Positions 2,348-52,648 of a DNA stretch of 52,926 bases are shown piece by piece. The notes beneath the pieces were generated by a model. The model saw only the letters and a list, made by a program, of their open reading frames with translations, was not told the DNA's origin and made no database searches. This DNA is from Phycisphaerae bacterium (GTDB lineage: Bacteria > Planctomycetota > Phycisphaerae > Sedimentisphaerales > Anaerobacaceae): NCBI GenBank assembly GCA_030619925.1, contig JAUXAL010000020.1, positions 1-52,926 of the forward strand, given 5' to 3'. The translations under genes and the position numbers were made by a program. Positions within the stretch are counted from its first letter, which is position 1; each line of letters begins with the position of its first letter.

Positions 2348-3928
2348 ATGAATATTCTGATGCAGATAGGGCCATCCACCGTGGTCGGTGCGCTTGTTAT
2401 TGGCCTTTTTTTGGGGGGGTGTCTGGTTGCCATGATTAACCAGATGATTTCCAGAGCAAAGGCCAAAACCTTCGAGCAGGAGATGCAGCGGCAGAGGGAA
2501 GGCGCCAAAAGAGAAGCGGATAACATAATTAAATCCGCTCAGATTGATGCCGCTGCGGAGGCCATCAAGAAAAGAGAGCAATTCACATCTGAGGCTAATA
2601 AAATCCGTGCCGAGCAACATGAAACCGAAATGAGATTAACCAAACGCGAGGATGCTATTGACCGCCAGGTCGAGCTGCTCCAGCAGCGGGAAAAAGGATT
2701 AAAACAGAAGGAACAAGAGGTCGACAGGAGATTACACAATATTGGCCTCAGGGAAAAGCAGCTTTCTGTTTTGATGGCACAGCAGAAGAATCAACTGCTC
2801 AAAATCACCGCAATGGACATTAATGAGGCCAAGGAACTGCTCTTAAAGCGGCTCGAAGACGAGTGTGAGCACGAGATGTCAGCTTTGATTCAACGTAAGG
2901 TTGAAGAAAGCACCGAAACTGCTGACGAAAAAAGCCGGGAGGTAATCAGTGCCGCCATTCAGCGTTACGCCGCTGAGCAGACCTGTGAAGTAACTGTCTC
3001 AACCGTCGATATCCCGAATGACGATATGAAAGGCCGAATTATTGGTAGAGAAGGACGCAATATTCGCGCGTTTGAAAAAGCTACCGGCGTAGATGTCATC
3101 GTCGATGACACTCCTGGAATGATCGTTGTCAGCGGCTTCAGTCCCGTCAGGCGTGAGGTTGCTCGTCTTTCGATGGAACGGCTCATACAGGACGGACGAA
3201 TACATCCGTCTCGAATCGAGGAGCTTGTCGCTCAGACCAAAAAGGACGTCAACCATAAGCTCTTACAGCTTGGTAGAGACGCCGCCGTCGAGACCAACAT
3301 AAGAGGACTGAGCAACAAAATACTCAGTTTGATTGGTGCTTTGAGTTATAGAACAAGTTATGGCCAGAACGTGCTTCGCCACAGCGTTGAAGTTGCTTTT
3401 CTATCTCAGGTTATGGCTGATGAGCTTGGGCTGGACGGCTCGGTGGCAAGGCGTGCGGGACTGTTGCACGACATCGGCAAGGCCATTGACCACGACGTTG
3501 AAGGCAACCACCCCACTATAGGCGCAAATTATCTCAAACGCTTCAACGAATCGTCTGTTGTGCTAAATGCCGTTGCGGGACATCACGGCGATATCCTTGC
3601 GGATAACCCTTATACTCCGCTGGTTGCTGCCGCCGATGCAATCAGCGCTTCGCGCCCCGGCGCCAGAAGAGAAACGCTCGAAAGATATATTAAACGACTG
3701 GAAAAGCTTGAGGAAATCGCCGGCAGCTTTAAGGGGGTTGAAAACGCATACGCAATTCAGGCCGGACGAGAAATCCGGGTGATTGTAAGCGCCGATGACG
3801 TGGATGATGAAGCGGCGATGAAAATTGCGCGTGAGATTGCCATCAAGGTCGAAGACGAAATGACCTATCCCGGCGAAATCCAGGTAACACTGCTGCGCGA
3901 GGTCCGCTGCGTCGAATATGCCAGGTAG
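2348..3928 (+). CDS. rny: Ribonuclease Y
   Basis: This is a 526-residue membrane-anchored endoribonuclease that starts mRNA decay. In order: an N-terminal membrane helix (about residues 11-29), a long charged coiled coil (about 35-200), a KH domain with GRIIGREGRN near residue 229, and an HD phosphohydrolase domain with LLHDIGKAIDHD near residue 373, which supplies the metal-binding His-Asp pair. Length and domain order match the family (about 520 residues). The ATG follows AGGTAGGA. ymdB lies downstream in the conserved rny-ymdB arrangement. A long leader or separate RNA lies upstream. Identification is secure. Confidence 0.97.
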   Translation: MNILMQIGPSTVVGALVIGLFLGGCLVAMINQMISRAKAKTFEQEMQRQREGAKREADNIIKSAQIDAAAEAIKKREQFTSEANKIRAEQHETEMRLTKREDAIDRQVELLQQREKGLKQKEQEVDRRLHNIGLREKQLSVLMAQQKNQLLKITAMDINEAKELLLKRLEDECEHEMSALIQRKVEESTETADEKSREVISAAIQRYAAEQTCEVTVSTVDIPNDDMKGRIIGREGRNIRAFEKATGVDVIVDDTPGMIVVSGFSPVRREVARLSMERLIQDGRIHPSRIEELVAQTKKDVNHKLLQLGRDAAVETNIRGLSNKILSLIGALSYRTSYGQNVLRHSVEVAFLSQVMADELGLDGSVARRAGLLHDIGKAIDHDVEGNHPTIGANYLKRFNESSVVLNAVAGHHGDILADNPYTPLVAAADAISASRPGARRETLERYIKRLEKLEEIAGSFKGVENAYAIQAGREIRVIVSADDVDDEAAMKIAREIAIKVEDEMTYPGEIQVTLLREVRCVEYAR

Positions 3929-35855: not shown

Positions 35856-37343
35856 ATGAGATACGAAATGCGAGATACGAGATACGAATTTGCCGGCAAA
35901 ACTGTTCTGGTTATGGGTTTGGGGCGTTTCGGCGGCGGAGTTGATGTTGCTAAATTTGCCGCCGCCGGCGGTGCAAAAGTAGTAATAACGGATTTGGCTT
36001 CAGCACAGCAGCTAAGCGATTCGGTCAAGAAGCTCGAAGAATTTGCTGATATAGAATTTCATCTCGGCTCACACGACCCCGCTGATTTTGAACAAGCCGA
36101 TATTATCGTAGCCAATCCTGCGGTGCCAAGCGATAATGAGTTTCTCAAGCTCGCCCGCCGGCACAACAAATTTATCACGTCTCAGATAAGCATCTTTTTC
36201 CAGCTTTGCCCCGCCCCGATAATCGGCATAACGGGAGCGAACGGCAAGAGCACAACCACCGCCCTGGCCGCCCACCTTCTCAGAAACGGACTCGGCAAAA
36301 GCATAGTTCGAGATACGAGCATCGAGAATCGAGCGTCGAGAATCGAGCACGTTTGGCTCAGCGGCAACATCGGCGACGAGCCGTTACTGACGGTGGTAGA
36401 CCAAATCGCCTCTGGTGATTTGGTTGTGCTGGAGTTGTCGAGTTTTCAGCTTGAGCAATTGGCACAAATTCAAAAAGCACCGAAAGTTGCGCTCCTGACG
36501 AATCTTACGCCAAACCACCTCGACCGCTATGGCACATTTGCCGCCTATTGTGCCGCGAAGGAAAATATATTCAGGTTTCAGAAACCGAGCGAGGATTCTC
36601 CTGCCGTCTCTATCTTCAATGCCGAAGACAAGGTTGGTGCCGAATGGTTTGAAAAATACGAGAAGGCCGCGGGGGGCGGCAGGATTTGCATTAAGTTTTC
36701 AACTGACGATGTGAGCCAAGAGATTCGCGATAGTTTCAGACTGCCCGGCCGAGCCAATCTTTCAAACCTCGCTGCCGCCATCGCCATAGCTAAGTATTTT
36801 GGTGTTGATGATGACCTGATTAAAAATTCTCTGCCGGAGTTTAAGCCGCTTCCTCATCGGCTCGAACTTGTCCGCCAGACGTACGGCGGACTTGTAGAAC
36901 AAATACCCAGCAGCGCTGGGTCTTATCAGGCCCGCCTTCGGCGGGGTGTTTTTTGGTACAATGATTCGAAGGCCACTACGCCGCAAAGTGCGATTGCCGC
37001 ACTCGAGGCTTTTGACCAGCCTAAGATTATCATTGCCGGCGGATATGATAAGGAGTTGTCCTTCGATGAACTCGGCCGAAAAATAGCCGAAAACGCCAAA
37101 GCAGCTATTCTCATAGGCCAGACCGCCGAGAAAATCGCAGATGCCATTAAAGCTTCCCCAAAAAACCAGGCGCGAACCGAGCTTGTCGAATCTCTCGCCG
37201 AGGCCGTCCAATTGGCGAATCAGCTCGCAGAAACCGGCGATGTCGTTTTGCTGAGCCCCGCCTGCGCAAGCTACGATATGTTCGATAATTTTCAGCACCG
37301 CGGGTGTGAGTTTATCAGACTCGTGCGAGATATCAGCCGTTGA
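35856..37343 (+). CDS. murD: UDP-N-acetylmuramoylalanine-D-glutamate ligase with repeat-encoded insertions
   Basis: This 495-residue cytoplasmic ligase adds D-glutamate in peptidoglycan synthesis. The start I prefer is the ATG at 35856; the longer frame starts with GTG in a palindrome. Domain 1 begins FAGKTVLVMGLGRFGGG, domain 2 has the ATP loop GITGANGKSTT, SGNIGDEPLL and LELSSFQLEQL, and domain 3 has WYNDSKATTPQSAIAAL and the C-terminal LLSPACASYDMFDNF. Three pieces come from repeats: the N-terminal MRYEMRDTRYE (heptads), about 14 residues VRDTSIENRASRIE before the SGNIG motif (heptads, 36310-36350), and about 17 residues EQIPSSAGSYQARLRRG before WYNDSKAT (palindromes, 36906-36945). All leave the frame intact. 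The essential motifs are present, so it is probably active. Confidence 0.95.
   Translation: MRYEMRDTRYEFAGKTVLVMGLGRFGGGVDVAKFAAAGGAKVVITDLASAQQLSDSVKKLEEFADIEFHLGSHDPADFEQADIIVANPAVPSDNEFLKLARRHNKFITSQISIFFQLCPAPIIGITGANGKSTTTALAAHLLRNGLGKSIVRDTSIENRASRIEHVWLSGNIGDEPLLTVVDQIASGDLVVLELSSFQLEQLAQIQKAPKVALLTNLTPNHLDRYGTFAAYCAAKENIFRFQKPSEDSPAVSIFNAEDKVGAEWFEKYEKAAGGGRICIKFSTDDVSQEIRDSFRLPGRANLSNLAAAIAIAKYFGVDDDLIKNSLPEFKPLPHRLELVRQTYGGLVEQIPSSAGSYQARLRRGVFWYNDSKATTPQSAIAALEAFDQPKIIIAGGYDKELSFDELGRKIAENAKAAILIGQTAEKIADAIKASPKNQARTELVESLAEAVQLANQLAETGDVVLLSPACASYDMFDNFQHRGCEFIRLVRDISR
35858..35885. repeat. GAGATAC heptads at the murD start
   Basis: GAGATAC-GAAATGC-GAGATAC-GAGATAC supplies codons 1-10 of murD, beginning at the G of the ATG. 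Confidence 0.75.
36310..36350. repeat. Heptad array inside murD
   Basis: Six heptads (GAGATAC, GAGCATC, GAGAATC, GAGCGTC, GAGAATC, GAGCACG) lie in frame between the ATP loop and the GNIG motif, where other MurD proteins have no such segment. Confidence 0.8.
36906..36945. repeat. Paired palindromes inside murD
   Basis: CCCAGC-AGC-GCTGGG (36906-36920), the spacer TCTTATCAGG, then CCCGCC-TTC-GGCGGG (36931-36945). They lie in frame in domain 3. The same layout recurs in the TPR gene at 46719 and 47394. Confidence 0.8.
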
Positions 37344-49420: not shown

Positions 49421-49536
49421 GCTCACCATCTTGCTGCCCTGTAAAATTTACCCAAAAATGGGTTGTAATATCATCATAATTTTGTAACATTCCGTACTTC
49501 GTTGATAGGTTGCGAGTTTTTCGAAAGGGTGTAGAG

Positions 49537-49710
49537 ATGCCAGCTAAGGTGAGTGAAGAAAAATGTACAGGTTGTGAATCCTGTATAGCGGAGTGCCCGA
49601 GCGAGGCTATAGGCAAGGTTGGCGACAAGGCCGTCGTTGATGTCGAAAACTGCATCGATTGCGGGGTTTGCGTTGACGCTTGTCCGGAGGAGGCAATCGG
49701 TATGGAGTAA
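49537..49710 (+). CDS. Two-cluster 4Fe-4S ferredoxin
   Basis: This 57-residue protein has two CxxCxxCxxxCP motifs, CTGCESCIAECP and CIDCGVCVDACP, each binding one [4Fe-4S]. It is a small low-potential electron carrier, consistent with anaerobic metabolism. I chose the ATG at 49537, which has GGGTG upstream; a TTG extension of nine codons is less likely. It ends eight bases before tRNA-Glu. Confidence 0.92.
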   Translation: MPAKVSEEKCTGCESCIAECPSEAIGKVGDKAVVDVENCIDCGVCVDACPEEAIGME

Positions 49711-49718
49711 ATTTGGTC

Positions 49719-49793
49719 GGCCCCATCGTCTAGGCAGGTCCAGGACACCGGGTTTTCAACCCGGCAACAGGGGTTCGAATCCCCTTGGGGCTA
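49719..49793 (+). tRNA. tRNA-Glu (anticodon UUC)
   Basis: The cloverleaf is complete: acceptor GGCCCCA with TGGGGCT, D arm GTC...GAC with a slightly long loop, anticodon stem CCGGG/CCCGG around TT-TTC-AA, T stem AGGGG/CCCCT with the loop TTCGAAT, discriminator A. CCA is not encoded. Its 3' end is the probable insertion point of the island that follows. Confidence 0.95.
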
Positions 49794-49825
49794 TTTTTTA
49801 TTTTCTATTGATTATTGATGATTGA

Positions 49826-50620
49826 TTATTTGCCTGACGGCAATTCCGTCAGTAATCTTCTTTGCTGAATCCGGTCGGTTAAACGTCGGCCTTTTAGTAG
49901 CTGTGTTGTGTTGCCATCCCGCACGTATACTTCGTTATCCAGATTAACGGGTTCTTTGTCTGCTTGGACATCTATACGACAAACCGTTCCTTCCATAAAT
50001 TTTTCAAATGATACCTTAACCTTGCCAATAGGGTACGGTTCAAATCGGTCTCTCAAGCAATTTCGTATTTGTTGCTCGAACGTATCGTTGTTCCCCTGTT
50101 CCATAGTGTTTAAATACGGCTCGATACCTACTATCTTTCCCGAATTATTTACACCTATAAGCAGTATTCCACCTTCGGCATTTAAAAAGCCTGCTATGGT
50201 CTTTAATGGAGAAAATAAAACATCGTTGTTTTTTCGATTTTGCTGCGTGTTACACTCAGGTATCTCTTTAAATTCAAGTGTATGACTCTCACTTTGTTGT
50301 ATAAGTTTAGATATAGGTACTTCGGCAAGGCTGGTTTCTTTTGCTTCCCTCGCATCCCGCCGTTGATAAATCAACGCTTCAATTGTTGTGTCCCTAATTT
50401 TCAGTAAGGATACCCAAACTTCTTCCTGATGTAATGGTGAATCTTTGTAATGTTTTCTAATGTCGAATATAAAATCATAAAAAAGCGGAAATTCGTTTTG
50501 AAGTTCGGCGCTGTCGCAATACGCCTCCAATAACTGTTCGCCGTTCATCCTACCGTAAGGTTCAAGTTGTCGCTTGCGTTCTGCAAGATTATCTTCGGCC
50601 TTCTTCTCTGTGTTTTTCAT
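49826..50620 (-). CDS. AlbA_2 (Schlafen-type) domain protein
   Basis: This is a 264-residue protein. Residues about 110-225 match the AlbA_2/divergent AAA-4 fold: ESHTLEFKEI, IAGFLNAEGGILLIGVNNSG with KIVGIE following, and the C-terminal RDGNTTQLLKG. The N-terminal 110 residues are helical and unrecognised. Such proteins often act as DNA-associated regulators, defence or toxin-antitoxin accessory proteins, or tRNA/RNA nucleases of the Schlafen type. There is no partner gene in view. AGGTGA precedes the ATG. It lies between the tRNA and the lipoprotein gene, on the opposite strand. Confidence 0.85.
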   Translation of the reverse strand: MKNTEKKAEDNLAERKRQLEPYGRMNGEQLLEAYCDSAELQNEFPLFYDFIFDIRKHYKDSPLHQEEVWVSLLKIRDTTIEALIYQRRDAREAKETSLAEVPISKLIQQSESHTLEFKEIPECNTQQNRKNNDVLFSPLKTIAGFLNAEGGILLIGVNNSGKIVGIEPYLNTMEQGNNDTFEQQIRNCLRDRFEPYPIGKVKVSFEKFMEGTVCRIDVQADKEPVNLDNEVYVRDGNTTQLLKGRRLTDRIQQRRLLTELPSGK

Positions 50621-50832
50621 AGTTCACCTGTCCTTTTCTGGTCGGTCTGAGCAATGGCAGGTTAGACAGGCGGGAAAAACCTTACCACTGCTCAAACCGC
50701 TTGACCGGTAGCTTGCCGGTCGTCCCGATTTTTATTTCTCTGGATTTTAACTGATACTGCCCGAAAAGCAATGTTTCGGCTTGGTTTTCCTTGTCTGTCA
50801 GCGGTAAAACAGGTATAATTACACTCGACTAA
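50621..50832 (+). promoter_or_regulatory. Leader and promoter of the lipoprotein gene
   Basis: It contains the hairpin GACCGG/CCGGTC near 50710 and a promoter TTGTCT (50791-50796), 17 bases, TATAAT (50814-50819) reading towards the lipoprotein. Confidence 0.55.
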
Positions 50833-50928
50833 CCAGCAAAAAGAATAAATCTCAGTAGCACCATTATCCTGCTCTTGCTGCTTGGCCTCGGTGGTTTGTT
50901 GCTTCGCAGAAAACGAAGGCTATTATGA
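50833..50928 (+). pseudogene. Orphan PEP-CTERM-like tail
   Basis: A 31-codon frame between two stops encodes INLSSTIILLLLLGLGGLLL then RRKRRLL. It matches the end of the genuine PEP-CTERM protein here (ILLGLGGLLLRRRK) but has no start, no body and no PEP. It is probably what remains of a deleted exported protein. Confidence 0.55.
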
Positions 50929-50941
50929 AAGGATAAGAAAA

Positions 50942-51799
50942 ATGAAAAAGGTACTAATTTTAACGACATTATTGCTCTTTACTGGCTGTGAATCACCGGA
51001 AGAAAAACAATTGAAGCCCAAAGGCGCAGTCCTGGAACAAAAACAAGGGGATATATTTGACCGGATAGGAGCGAAACCTCTGACATTTGACCCCAATCTA
51101 TTACCTCAAAAAGAAAGTGCACTCGTTGACCTCGGCCCTGCCCCCACCCCCAACATAGAGGCGTTTTATAAGCTCTTGGAGAAGAAAGAGCGGAAATTTA
51201 TGGAGTTGGCCGACCTCCTTTTCCAATTGCAGCAGCAAACCAAAGTGAAGCACGATGACTGGGAAACAATTATTTCGCTCTTGGGTCAGATGAATTTGCT
51301 GTCGGATGCTCTCTTTTGCCAGGAGATAGTTCAGGAGATTGATGCAAAATTGAGCCCTGAATTGAGGCAACACGCATTGGACACAATGCGCAAACGAAAG
51401 CAAAAACGAAAGCAATGGATAAAACAACTTCCCTCTGAAAAGCGCCAAGAGCTTTTGCGCCTGACCCGCTTACTAAACGAATGGATGCAGGCCGAAATTG
51501 AACGACAGAAACTTATCGTGCGTTTCCAGGAAGCCTATCCGGAAAAATGGCGGCAAAAACTACTCGAATACGATATTGAACAGGAAAAGCAGCGTAAATA
51601 TGATTTTGAACAACAAATACGCGAAATCAATGCGCAATTGGAAAGGGAATACCAACAACGGCAAATGATAGGCGCAATAGAAAGCCTCAAACCTGATCCC
51701 TATCAAGAATATCTTGACCGTCAAAAGGAAAGAGATGTCCGTCAAGAGGAAAGAGATTTCCGCAGAAAACTTTTGAATATTTTGAATAACCTTGAGTAA
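50942..51799 (+). CDS. Lipoprotein with a long coiled coil
   Basis: This 285-residue protein opens MKKVLILTTLLLFTGCESPE, a signal peptide with a lipobox (Cys16). The mature part is helical and charged: KLLEKKERKFMELADLLFQL, LRQHALDTMRKRKQKRKQWI, and a C-terminal QxxERDxR run (DRQKERDVRQEERDFRRK). The longer frame starts upstream in the orphan tail region and lacks a ribosome site. No family is recognised. The codon use and Gln/Lys content differ from the neighbours, in keeping with its position in the island. Confidence 0.75.
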   Translation: MKKVLILTTLLLFTGCESPEEKQLKPKGAVLEQKQGDIFDRIGAKPLTFDPNLLPQKESALVDLGPAPTPNIEAFYKLLEKKERKFMELADLLFQLQQQTKVKHDDWETIISLLGQMNLLSDALFCQEIVQEIDAKLSPELRQHALDTMRKRKQKRKQWIKQLPSEKRQELLRLTRLLNEWMQAEIERQKLIVRFQEAYPEKWRQKLLEYDIEQEKQRKYDFEQQIREINAQLEREYQQRQMIGAIESLKPDPYQEYLDRQKERDVRQEERDFRRKLLNILNNLE

Positions 51800-51825
51800 G
51801 TCCAAATTTCAGCTTGAAAACAAGA

Positions 51826-52053
51826 ATGGTAACTGTTTACGTCCTTCAGGGAAAAGACAAACGGTACGTCGGTATAACCAATAATCTAATTCGGCGATTA
51901 GCCGAACACAAGTCAGGACACACCAAAAGTGCACAAATCATCGGCCAATTTAAGCTTCTGCATACGGAAGAATTTCCCGATTACAACTCCGCACGAAAAA
52001 GAGAAAAGTTTTTGAAGAGCGGGCAGGGAAGAGAGTTTCTCAATAGTTTGTAA
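51826..52053 (+). CDS. GIY-YIG domain protein
   Basis: This 75-residue minimal GIY-YIG nuclease-type protein has VTVYVLQGKDKRYVGITNNL (the YVL...YVG motif), the conserved Arg in IRRLAEHKSGHT, the Glu in LLHTEEFPDYNSARKRE and FLKSGQGREFLNSL. Such small proteins are often found beside tRNA genes, followed by the tRNA 3' end; here the stop is followed within three bases by the tRNA-Glu fragment. The ATG at 51826 lacks a strong ribosome site. Confidence 0.88.
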   Translation: MVTVYVLQGKDKRYVGITNNLIRRLAEHKSGHTKSAQIIGQFKLLHTEEFPDYNSARKREKFLKSGQGREFLNSL

Positions 52054-52056
52054 GCT

Positions 52057-52127
52057 GGCAACAGGGTCCGCCTCCGGCGGATAAAGTTCGAACTTGCCCG
52101 CCGAAGGCGGGTCCCCTTGGGGCTATT
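52057..52127 (+). pseudogene. tRNA-Glu 3' fragment split by two palindromes
   Basis: It has three blocks identical to the tRNA-Glu 3' half: GGCAACAGGG (52057-52066), GTTCGAA (52086-52092) and TCCCCTTGGGGCTATT (52112-52127). Between them are TCCGCC-TCC-GGCGGA (52067-52081) and CCCGCC-GAA-GGCGGG (52097-52111). The palindromes fall exactly in the T arm, on either side of the loop sequence. Confidence 0.85.
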
Positions 52128-52171: not shown

Positions 52172-52648
52172 TTAGATTATCAAACCGGATACGACCGTTT
52201 CAAATACCATAGTGCTGTCAACGACGCCCTGGACGCTGGTGGTGTATTTTCTCCGCCTGAATTTCGTGATATGGCCAAGCAGAAGCAATCTTTGTCCCGG
52301 CTCGACAACAGAGCGAAACTTCGCTGACTCTATGCCGGCAAAGCCGATAAAGCCCTTCAGCTCATAAATCAGCTTCACAAAAAAGCACGAAAGCTGAGCT
52401 GCGGCCTCGACCATTATTACGCCGGGCATCAACGGCCGGCCGGGGATGTGCCCGCGAACCCAGAATTCATTTTTCGTTACATCCTTATAGGCCAGAACAA
52501 GAAGTTTTTCCTTATCGTACCAGAGGATGCCATCGAGCTGCTGCATCTCAAATCGTTGGGGATTTGCTTTACCAATCGCTTCTTTATCGAATATGGGTTC
52601 TGCCGTCAGGTCTATTTTCGATAAATCAAATAATAATGGCGGCGGCAT
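52172..52648 (-). CDS. FabZ-like 3-hydroxyacyl-ACP dehydratase
   Basis: This 158-residue hot-dog-fold enzyme has the catalytic His in RGHIPGRPLMPGVIMVEAAA and the Glu of that same motif. Family members dehydrate 3-hydroxyacyl-ACP in fatty-acid or lipid A synthesis. The N-terminus (about 40 residues) and the RRRKYTTSVQG segment diverge from E. coli FabZ. GAGG precedes the ATG. Which pathway it serves is not settled by the neighbours in view. Confidence 0.88.
   Translation of the reverse strand: MPPPLLFDLSKIDLTAEPIFDKEAIGKANPQRFEMQQLDGILWYDKEKLLVLAYKDVTKNEFWVRGHIPGRPLMPGVIMVEAAAQLSCFFVKLIYELKGFIGFAGIESAKFRSVVEPGQRLLLLGHITKFRRRKYTTSVQGVVDSTMVFETVVSGLII

Follow-up and report, generated by a model that had tools for sequence, protein, structure and literature searches.

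Why should the 3' part of a tRNA-Glu gene stand a second time behind a small nuclease gene, with its T arm broken up by two palindromes? The question is raised by positions 52057..52127 of the window, i.e. the whole stretch of 52,926 nucleotides that was analysed. The fragment is made up of three blocks of tRNA sequence on the plus strand. Block 1, GGCAACAGGG (52057..52066), comprises the end of the anticodon arm, the variable loop and the 5' side of the T stem; block 2, GTTCGAA (52086..52092), is the last T-stem base with the T loop; and block 3, TCCCCTTGGGGCTATT (52112..52127), also serves as the right-hand copy of the repeat bordering the insertion. Between the blocks lie two inserts of 19 nt on the same strand, each composed of a 15-nt hairpin and a 4-nt foot: TCCGCCTCCGGCGGA followed by TAAA (52067..52085), one base before the 5' border of the T loop, and CTTG followed by CCCGCCGAAGGCGGG (52093..52111), one base before its 3' border. 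With both inserts removed, the blocks are identical to and collinear with 49763-49795, which is the 3' part of tRNA-Glu plus the first two flanking bases. The earlier note had described blocks matching tRNA-Glu base for base, with the palindromes between them around GTTCGAA, and this proved exact to the base; its suggestion that two hairpins had replaced the T stem does not hold, as the T-stem letters are kept and it is at the loop borders that the hairpins have entered. The outer blocks were recovered independently by a repeat search. A single long T arm formed by pairing of both hairpins is possible in the window, but was rejected because the hairpins differ elsewhere; in L158, L176 and others the two are unlike in sequence and each is its own palindrome.

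The intact tRNA-Glu (TTC) gene, the host tRNA of the element, was located at 49719..49793 (plus strand) by ARAGORN and Rfam. It is preceded by a ferredoxin-like ORF of 66 aa (49510..49710, plus strand; named by eye from its cysteine motifs), and an ORF resembling this one also precedes tRNA-Glu in the related genome G079. About 2 kb (49797..51825) separate the tRNA from the GIY-YIG nuclease gene (51826..52053, plus strand), which has 75 codons from its ATG, encodes the nuclease domain alone (PF01541, E 1e-12) and ends three bases ahead of the tRNA fragment. This interval contains a Schlafen/AlbA_2-domain gene (49826..50620, minus strand; PF04326, E 3.8e-19), which is possibly cargo or a second insertion, and an ORF with a lipoprotein-like start as judged by eye (50942..51799, plus strand; listed from an upstream TTG at 50882) that had no Pfam match. 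A short stretch at about 50870-50930 reads like what we take to be the end of a PEP-CTERM-type sorting signal, perhaps of a gene fragment. On the right lies a FabA-like gene (52172..52648, minus strand), a conserved neighbour that served as the marker for finding empty sites. Among the three main ORFs between the tRNA and its copy, Pfam recognised Schlafen/AlbA and GIY-YIG only, and no integrase was found in the window element. ARAGORN and Rfam (gathering score) reported the intact tRNA-Glu alone in the window; the fragment was not called, and Rfam gave no group I intron RNA around the GIY-YIG gene.

We consider it probable that the fragment marks the right-hand end of a minimal mobile element residing at tRNA genes, and the same site in relatives bears directly on this reading. 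Of 90 family genomes searched for the FabA-like neighbour, 87 gave a match, and 30 listed loci were read, of which L051 is the window's own and L057 has a FabA end that was not parsed. Ten of the 30 were empty, with 19-67 nt between tRNA-Glu and FabA. Two sites besides the window were filled (G145 and G079), one held a remnant (G043), four had other DNA between tRNA-Glu and FabA (L056, L059, L060, L062), and in eleven tRNA-Glu was not found beside FabA. The state of the site varies within genera g27, g14 and g9: G145 is filled whereas its genus mates G114 and G144 are empty, G079 is filled and its mate G124 empty, and G043 carries the remnant whereas G149 and G150 are empty. When the window was compared with G144, the left homology stopped at 49796 and the right homology started at 52112, leaving a flanking repeat of the tRNA 3' end of 17 bp; the repeat is 20 bp for G145 against G144 and 16 bp for G043 against G150. 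The expectation that the fragment would inform on insertion was thus borne out, since the fragment forms the right end of an insertion that has 16-20 bp of the 3' end of the tRNA on either side. By eye, a further and more decayed tRNA-Glu tail copy could be seen between tRNA-Glu and FabA in L060 and L062 (genomes G022 and G137), with another hairpin, CACGAC-N3-GTCGTG, in its T loop.

The distance from tail to tail is 2332 bp in the window, 391 bp in G145, 355 bp in G079 and 100 bp in the remnant. The compact elements of G145 and G079 (355-391 bp) lack the ~2 kb of the window (49797..51825) and contain the GIY-YIG gene alone, with no integrase. G079 belongs to another genus, and its GIY protein is 78% identical to that of the window; its hairpins stand at the same two places, the first with a different 3-nt loop. 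Both hairpins are retained in the remnant of G043, from a third genus. In G145 different hairpins occupy both T-loop borders with further ones between, L141 has the same right end as G145, and in L143 hairpins are found ahead of the T loop only. Different spacers in relatives had been proposed as a sign of chance assembly. The spacers of G145 and L143 are literally different, yet they are again hairpins in the same arm, so that chance assembly is not the explanation; chance and assembly artefact were both rejected because the same architecture occurs in independent genomes.

The association of such genes with tRNA genes extends far beyond this site. In a scan of named genomes with three sequences, 80 of 175 loci were kept as encoding relatives of the window GIY-YIG protein, and these span Planctomycetota, Verrucomicrobiota, Cloacimonadota, Bacteroidota, Myxococcota, several Patescibacteria groups and others. 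An intact tRNA or tmRNA gene on the same strand lies within 500 nt in 63 of the 80, and eight of the remaining 17 have no more than 450 nt of contig upstream. By distance, 69 tRNAs were found at 0-250 nt (38 kb scanned), 6 at 251-500 nt, 3 at 501-1000 nt and 1 at 1-3 kb (262 kb scanned); all 79 are on the strand of the GIY-YIG gene and none is opposite. The association is repeated over 17 tRNA isotypes and tmRNA. The order-level set comprised 92 loci, namely 3 of this genome and the best-scoring 89 of relatives; a same-strand tRNA or tmRNA was present within 500 nt in 34 of them and 58 had no intact tRNA there, the window locus itself being scored as a miss with its tRNA 2 kb off. One tRNA in this set was on the other strand, and none was found beyond 500 nt within flanks of 1.2-1.5 kb. 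At least two genomes occur in both sets (L022/L142, L023/L144), the genomes are mostly metagenome assemblies, and kinship is not taken into account in the shuffles or E-values.

Islands and phages with tyrosine integrases insert at the 3' end of tRNA genes and leave the tRNA intact, and integrase-driven islands are bordered by direct repeats of the tRNA 3' end. The locus might on that ground be read as a scar left by an ordinary island that integrates at tRNA genes and has attachment-site repeats, the GIY-YIG gene being a passenger. It shares with such islands the direct repeat (16-20 bp in three comparisons) and the intact tRNA, but here no integrase is present, the compact element is shorter than 400 bp with room for one small gene, and the second copy is hairpinned. 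With the association recurring over all those isotypes and tmRNA, we regard an island scar as highly improbable.

The tmRNA gene has such neighbours too. In the next relative, G028 (73% identical), the gene stands behind the 3' end of tmRNA, and the tmRNA tail copy has one hairpin (TCCGCCTGAGGCGGA followed by TAAA) ahead of its T loop. Searched in 99 genomes, tmRNA scored above the cut-off in 83, and comparison of coordinates placed a GIY match just downstream in 12. Presence is patchy within genera: in g40, G016, G021 and G034 have the gene there, whereas G011, G059 and G072 do not. Loci of the tRNA- and tmRNA-linked kind also occur in isolates, Roseivirga pacifica (L206) and Winogradskyella immobilis (L216).

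Several further loci were noted on the way. A distinct GIY-YIG subfamily, whose proteins end near GHAFxxRHFW, directly follows tmRNA in L019, L042, L044 and L045; no significant tail copy was detected for the tmRNA-linked L019 (a gene of this genome), L042 and L044. On inspection by eye, a tail of this kind is absent from two further small GIY-YIG genes of the genome (L016, L018). In the tRNA-Asn elements (L025, L027, L031, L037 and others) the GIY-YIG frame extends into the tRNA-Asn copy, where the D arm and the hairpin code for the C-terminus, e.g. GRASPPQAD, and the stop codon falls within the copied anticodon loop. Two GIY-YIG matches 360 bp apart follow one tRNA-Asn in G093:C16, L031 and L081, each with its own tRNA-Asn copy; the element appears to be repeated in tandem here. 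In two places of G003 (L036, L084) a small GIY-YIG gene was found, with 23S rRNA-like conserved sequence just downstream by eye in L036, which suggests an intron in 23S rRNA.

The partial copies were then compared with their tRNAs. Ninety-seven loci were tested (63 named, 34 order), and in 71 (50 and 21, respectively) a copy of the near tRNA across the gene scored above the best of 200 shuffles; no significant copy was obtained in the other 26, which include L019. Two orientations exist: in 42 loci the intact tRNA comes first and a 3' copy follows the gene, and in 29 a 5' copy comes first and the intact tRNA follows. Two of the pairings need a word of caution, although both loci keep their copies: the near tRNA-Cys of L027 is probably the hairpin copy itself and overlaps the site where the tRNA-Asn copy lies, and for L220 the alignment started from tRNA-Ile although its hairpin copy is of tRNA-Pro. 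When aligned less strictly, the 71 copies match their tRNAs at 3570 of 4097 positions, and hairpins are present in the inserts of 35 by a strict rule and of more by eye. In its compact form the element is one small GIY-YIG gene between an intact tRNA or tmRNA gene and a partial copy of it, with 15-nt hairpins at the borders of the copied loops.

The hairpins are not scattered over these copies. Fifty mapped insertions were placed on the tRNA structure, tmRNA being excluded, and 36 fall no further than 1 nt from a loop border, where 11.9 would be expected and none of 5000 simulations gave more than 23; L022 is the same genome as L142, and the count is 34 of 48 without this double entry. By loop, the border insertions are divided into 24 at the T loop, 11 at the D loop and 1 at the anticodon loop, and tRNA-Asn copies and some Arg and Pro copies have their hairpin in the anticodon arm instead. 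The earlier idea that palindromes target the T arm thus stands as far as position is concerned, which is not accidental. Perfect hairpins in the named set reach 4.27 per kb within 200 nt of the gene, against 0.027 at 1-3 kb (a difference of about 150-fold) and 0.005 in shuffles; the order set gave a weaker enrichment, 0.55 against 0.06 per kb. Of 163 GCC-N3-GGC cores lying no more than 250 nt from the gene, 139 are complementary at all three outer pairs, with 14 different triplets, compared with 8 of 130 at 500-3000 nt, so the hairpin persists although its sequence varies. In the neighbouring tRNA, the T loop together with one base on either side, the first of these being the last T-stem base, forms a 9-mer; of the 47 copies that extend as far as the T loop, 38 have it broken and nine keep it. 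Some copies retain identical blocks of 30-50 nt, and a pure breaking of homology was rejected as the role of the hairpins because of them.

The placement at T and D loops, which together form the elbow of the tRNA, could also mean that the hairpins act in RNA, stopping the leftover from folding into the tRNA elbow or from competing for processing with the functional tRNA. The gene is on the strand of the tRNA in every near case of the named set, and the window copy folds better than its shuffles (z -3.4 as RNA, -3.1 as DNA), which both agree with such a role. However, tRNA-Glu and tmRNA copies that consist of the 3' part only, and are unable to fold as tRNA, are hairpinned all the same, and we judge an action in RNA to be unlikely.

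Another candidate actor was the palindrome family of the genome itself. REP/REPIN palindromes, which are associated with RAYT transposases, are short hairpins with a 4-nt foot; the hairpins of the window resemble them in both respects and form an inverted pair. Independent REP-like repeats might insert at stem-loop junctions, with the tRNA pseudo-copies as tolerated targets. Palindromes CCGCCNNNGGCGG are indeed abundant in this genome (155 against 14 for the control), and in genomes with GIY matches the ratio of palindromes to controls is raised (median 4.6 against 2.3, p 4e-4) and an excess per Mb (p 0.03), both values ignoring kinship. The hairpins in one and the same arm also vary in sequence, number and orientation between G145, L143 and the window. 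Against this, the hairpins are concentrated in tRNA copies adjoining the GIY-YIG gene, unlike REP/REPIN, as seen in the named set from the steep fall in their density away from it. Moreover, much of the genomic family is something else. A second type of repeat, a CCGGC-rich hairpin with a GATC-containing spacer and then CCCGCCNNNGGCGGG, was found in G000, L003, L006-L009 and L011-L013 and at 36932, 43205 and 47421 of the window, and of the 15 genomic palindrome loci that were read, 8 have a GATC no more than 14 nt from the palindrome. The pattern of a palindrome, 5 nt and TTCRA has one exact match in the genome, the window's own fragment. The part of the earlier proposal that made the genomic family the actor is weakened by these two results, and free insertion of REP-like repeats appears quite unlikely.

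In the window protein Pfam matched GIY-YIG alone, at residues 7-69 of the 79-aa ORF, with no evident DNA-binding region beyond the nuclease domain. Among 12 proteins Y4, Y13, G15 and R23 are invariant and E59 is nearly so; we take these five to be the GIY-YIG catalytic positions. The solved structures nearest to the 12-protein profile are UPF0213 (1zg2, E 4e-12; 1ywl, E 1e-11), which are small GIY-YIG proteins, followed by SLX1 (7wme, E 4e-7), a structure-specific nuclease; we know of no tRNA-linked mobile architecture for either. Up to 4 of the 12 matched PHROG homing-endonuclease families and 6 matched the NCBIfam group I intron endonuclease model; the window protein had no match in PHROG or NCBIfam. 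An origin from a phage or plasmid was rejected, because the window protein had no match at E 1e-5 in phage or plasmid collections and none turned up when viral contigs were scanned with the three nearest proteins.

As reconstructed from the protein sequences, the nuclease tree tracks the tRNA target. The target changes 29 times over 64 rows and 18 states (17 isotypes and tmRNA), compared with a mean of 44.6 and a minimum of 40 in 300 shuffles of targets on the tree; shuffles within phylum gave a mean of 33.5, and 1 of 300 reached 29. The tree is built on 76 columns and 38 of its 76 inner branches are open. Its tRNA-Leu clade unites Giovannonibacteria and Bacteroidota, with SH-aLRT of 80-85 on the deeper forks.

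Homing endonucleases of the SegB kind usually have a DNA-binding region beyond the nuclease domain. The window protein resembles SegB-type elements in its GIY-YIG domain and conserved positions and in a site that is filled or empty among relatives, and differs from them in lacking such a region; being a bare nuclease domain with no evident DNA-binding part, it speaks against the reading as an element. SegB, a free-standing GIY-YIG homing endonuclease of T-even phages and a precedent for the cutting of tRNA genes by such an enzyme, is likewise encoded near tRNA genes of many isotypes; it cuts inside tRNA genes, and RAWTSGAAC was found in 23 of 83 mapped SegB sites, a motif that raises cutting without being strictly required, according to the available parts of the two reports (PMC13096335, PMC2988022). 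SegB is phage-borne, unlike the gene of the window, and a hairpin-studded partial tRNA copy is not mentioned for it in those parts (PMC13096335, PMC2988022). In our own reading, the reverse complement of the motif, GTTCSAWTY, corresponds to the T loop. Among the literature matches listed, which covered titles and the start of abstracts with subscription papers and preprints mostly outside, bacterial tRNA-linked mini GIY-YIG elements were not found.

The architecture, its recurrence over isotypes and phyla, its patchy presence in one genus, the repeat of the tRNA 3' end and the hairpins at loop borders were all observed directly, and from them we infer the cutting, the copying and the function of the hairpins. 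On the reading as a minimal mobile element, the nuclease probably cuts tRNA loops: it would cut the tRNA gene at or near a loop, which in the window would be the T loop. The broken 5' part of the recipient's tRNA would then be extended on the intact tRNA of the donor, synthesis would continue through the nuclease gene, and the end would be rejoined through the short copy of the tRNA tail. The product would be an intact tRNA, the gene and a leftover pseudo-tRNA, to which the window version would add its ~2 kb of other genes. Such a route would explain the intact tRNA, the short repeat and the spread across species, because the tRNA sequence itself supplies the homology. The hairpins may spoil the loop of the leftover, removing both the target and the continuous template at the cut, so that the leftover would be neither a good target nor a good template for precise loss. 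This disarming of the leftover copy is the least certain step of the proposed mechanism. A single T-loop target cannot explain all cases, since nine of the 47 9-mers are kept and many hairpins are in the D loop or anticodon arm; together with the long identical blocks, these suggest that the hairpins have more than one role, or another role.

Tentatively, and with some reserve, we suggest that these loci may represent a new minimal class of mobile DNA, in which a single small GIY-YIG nuclease, specific for the loops of one tRNA gene, would spread between bacterial phyla with nearly universal tRNA sequence as the homology on either side of its cut, and 15-nt hairpins at stem-loop junctions would mark the leftover and make the insertion hard to undo, both for the nuclease and for recombination. 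The mechanism can be addressed directly with the empty and filled sites of one genus, the SegB motif that resembles the T loop and the isolates that carry such loci. If this is true, the group of mini GIY-YIG genes would gain a role and the palindrome-bearing tRNA-like fragments beside them an explanation, and mobile elements of less than 400 bp would occupy tRNA genes over many phyla with no integrase or transposase.
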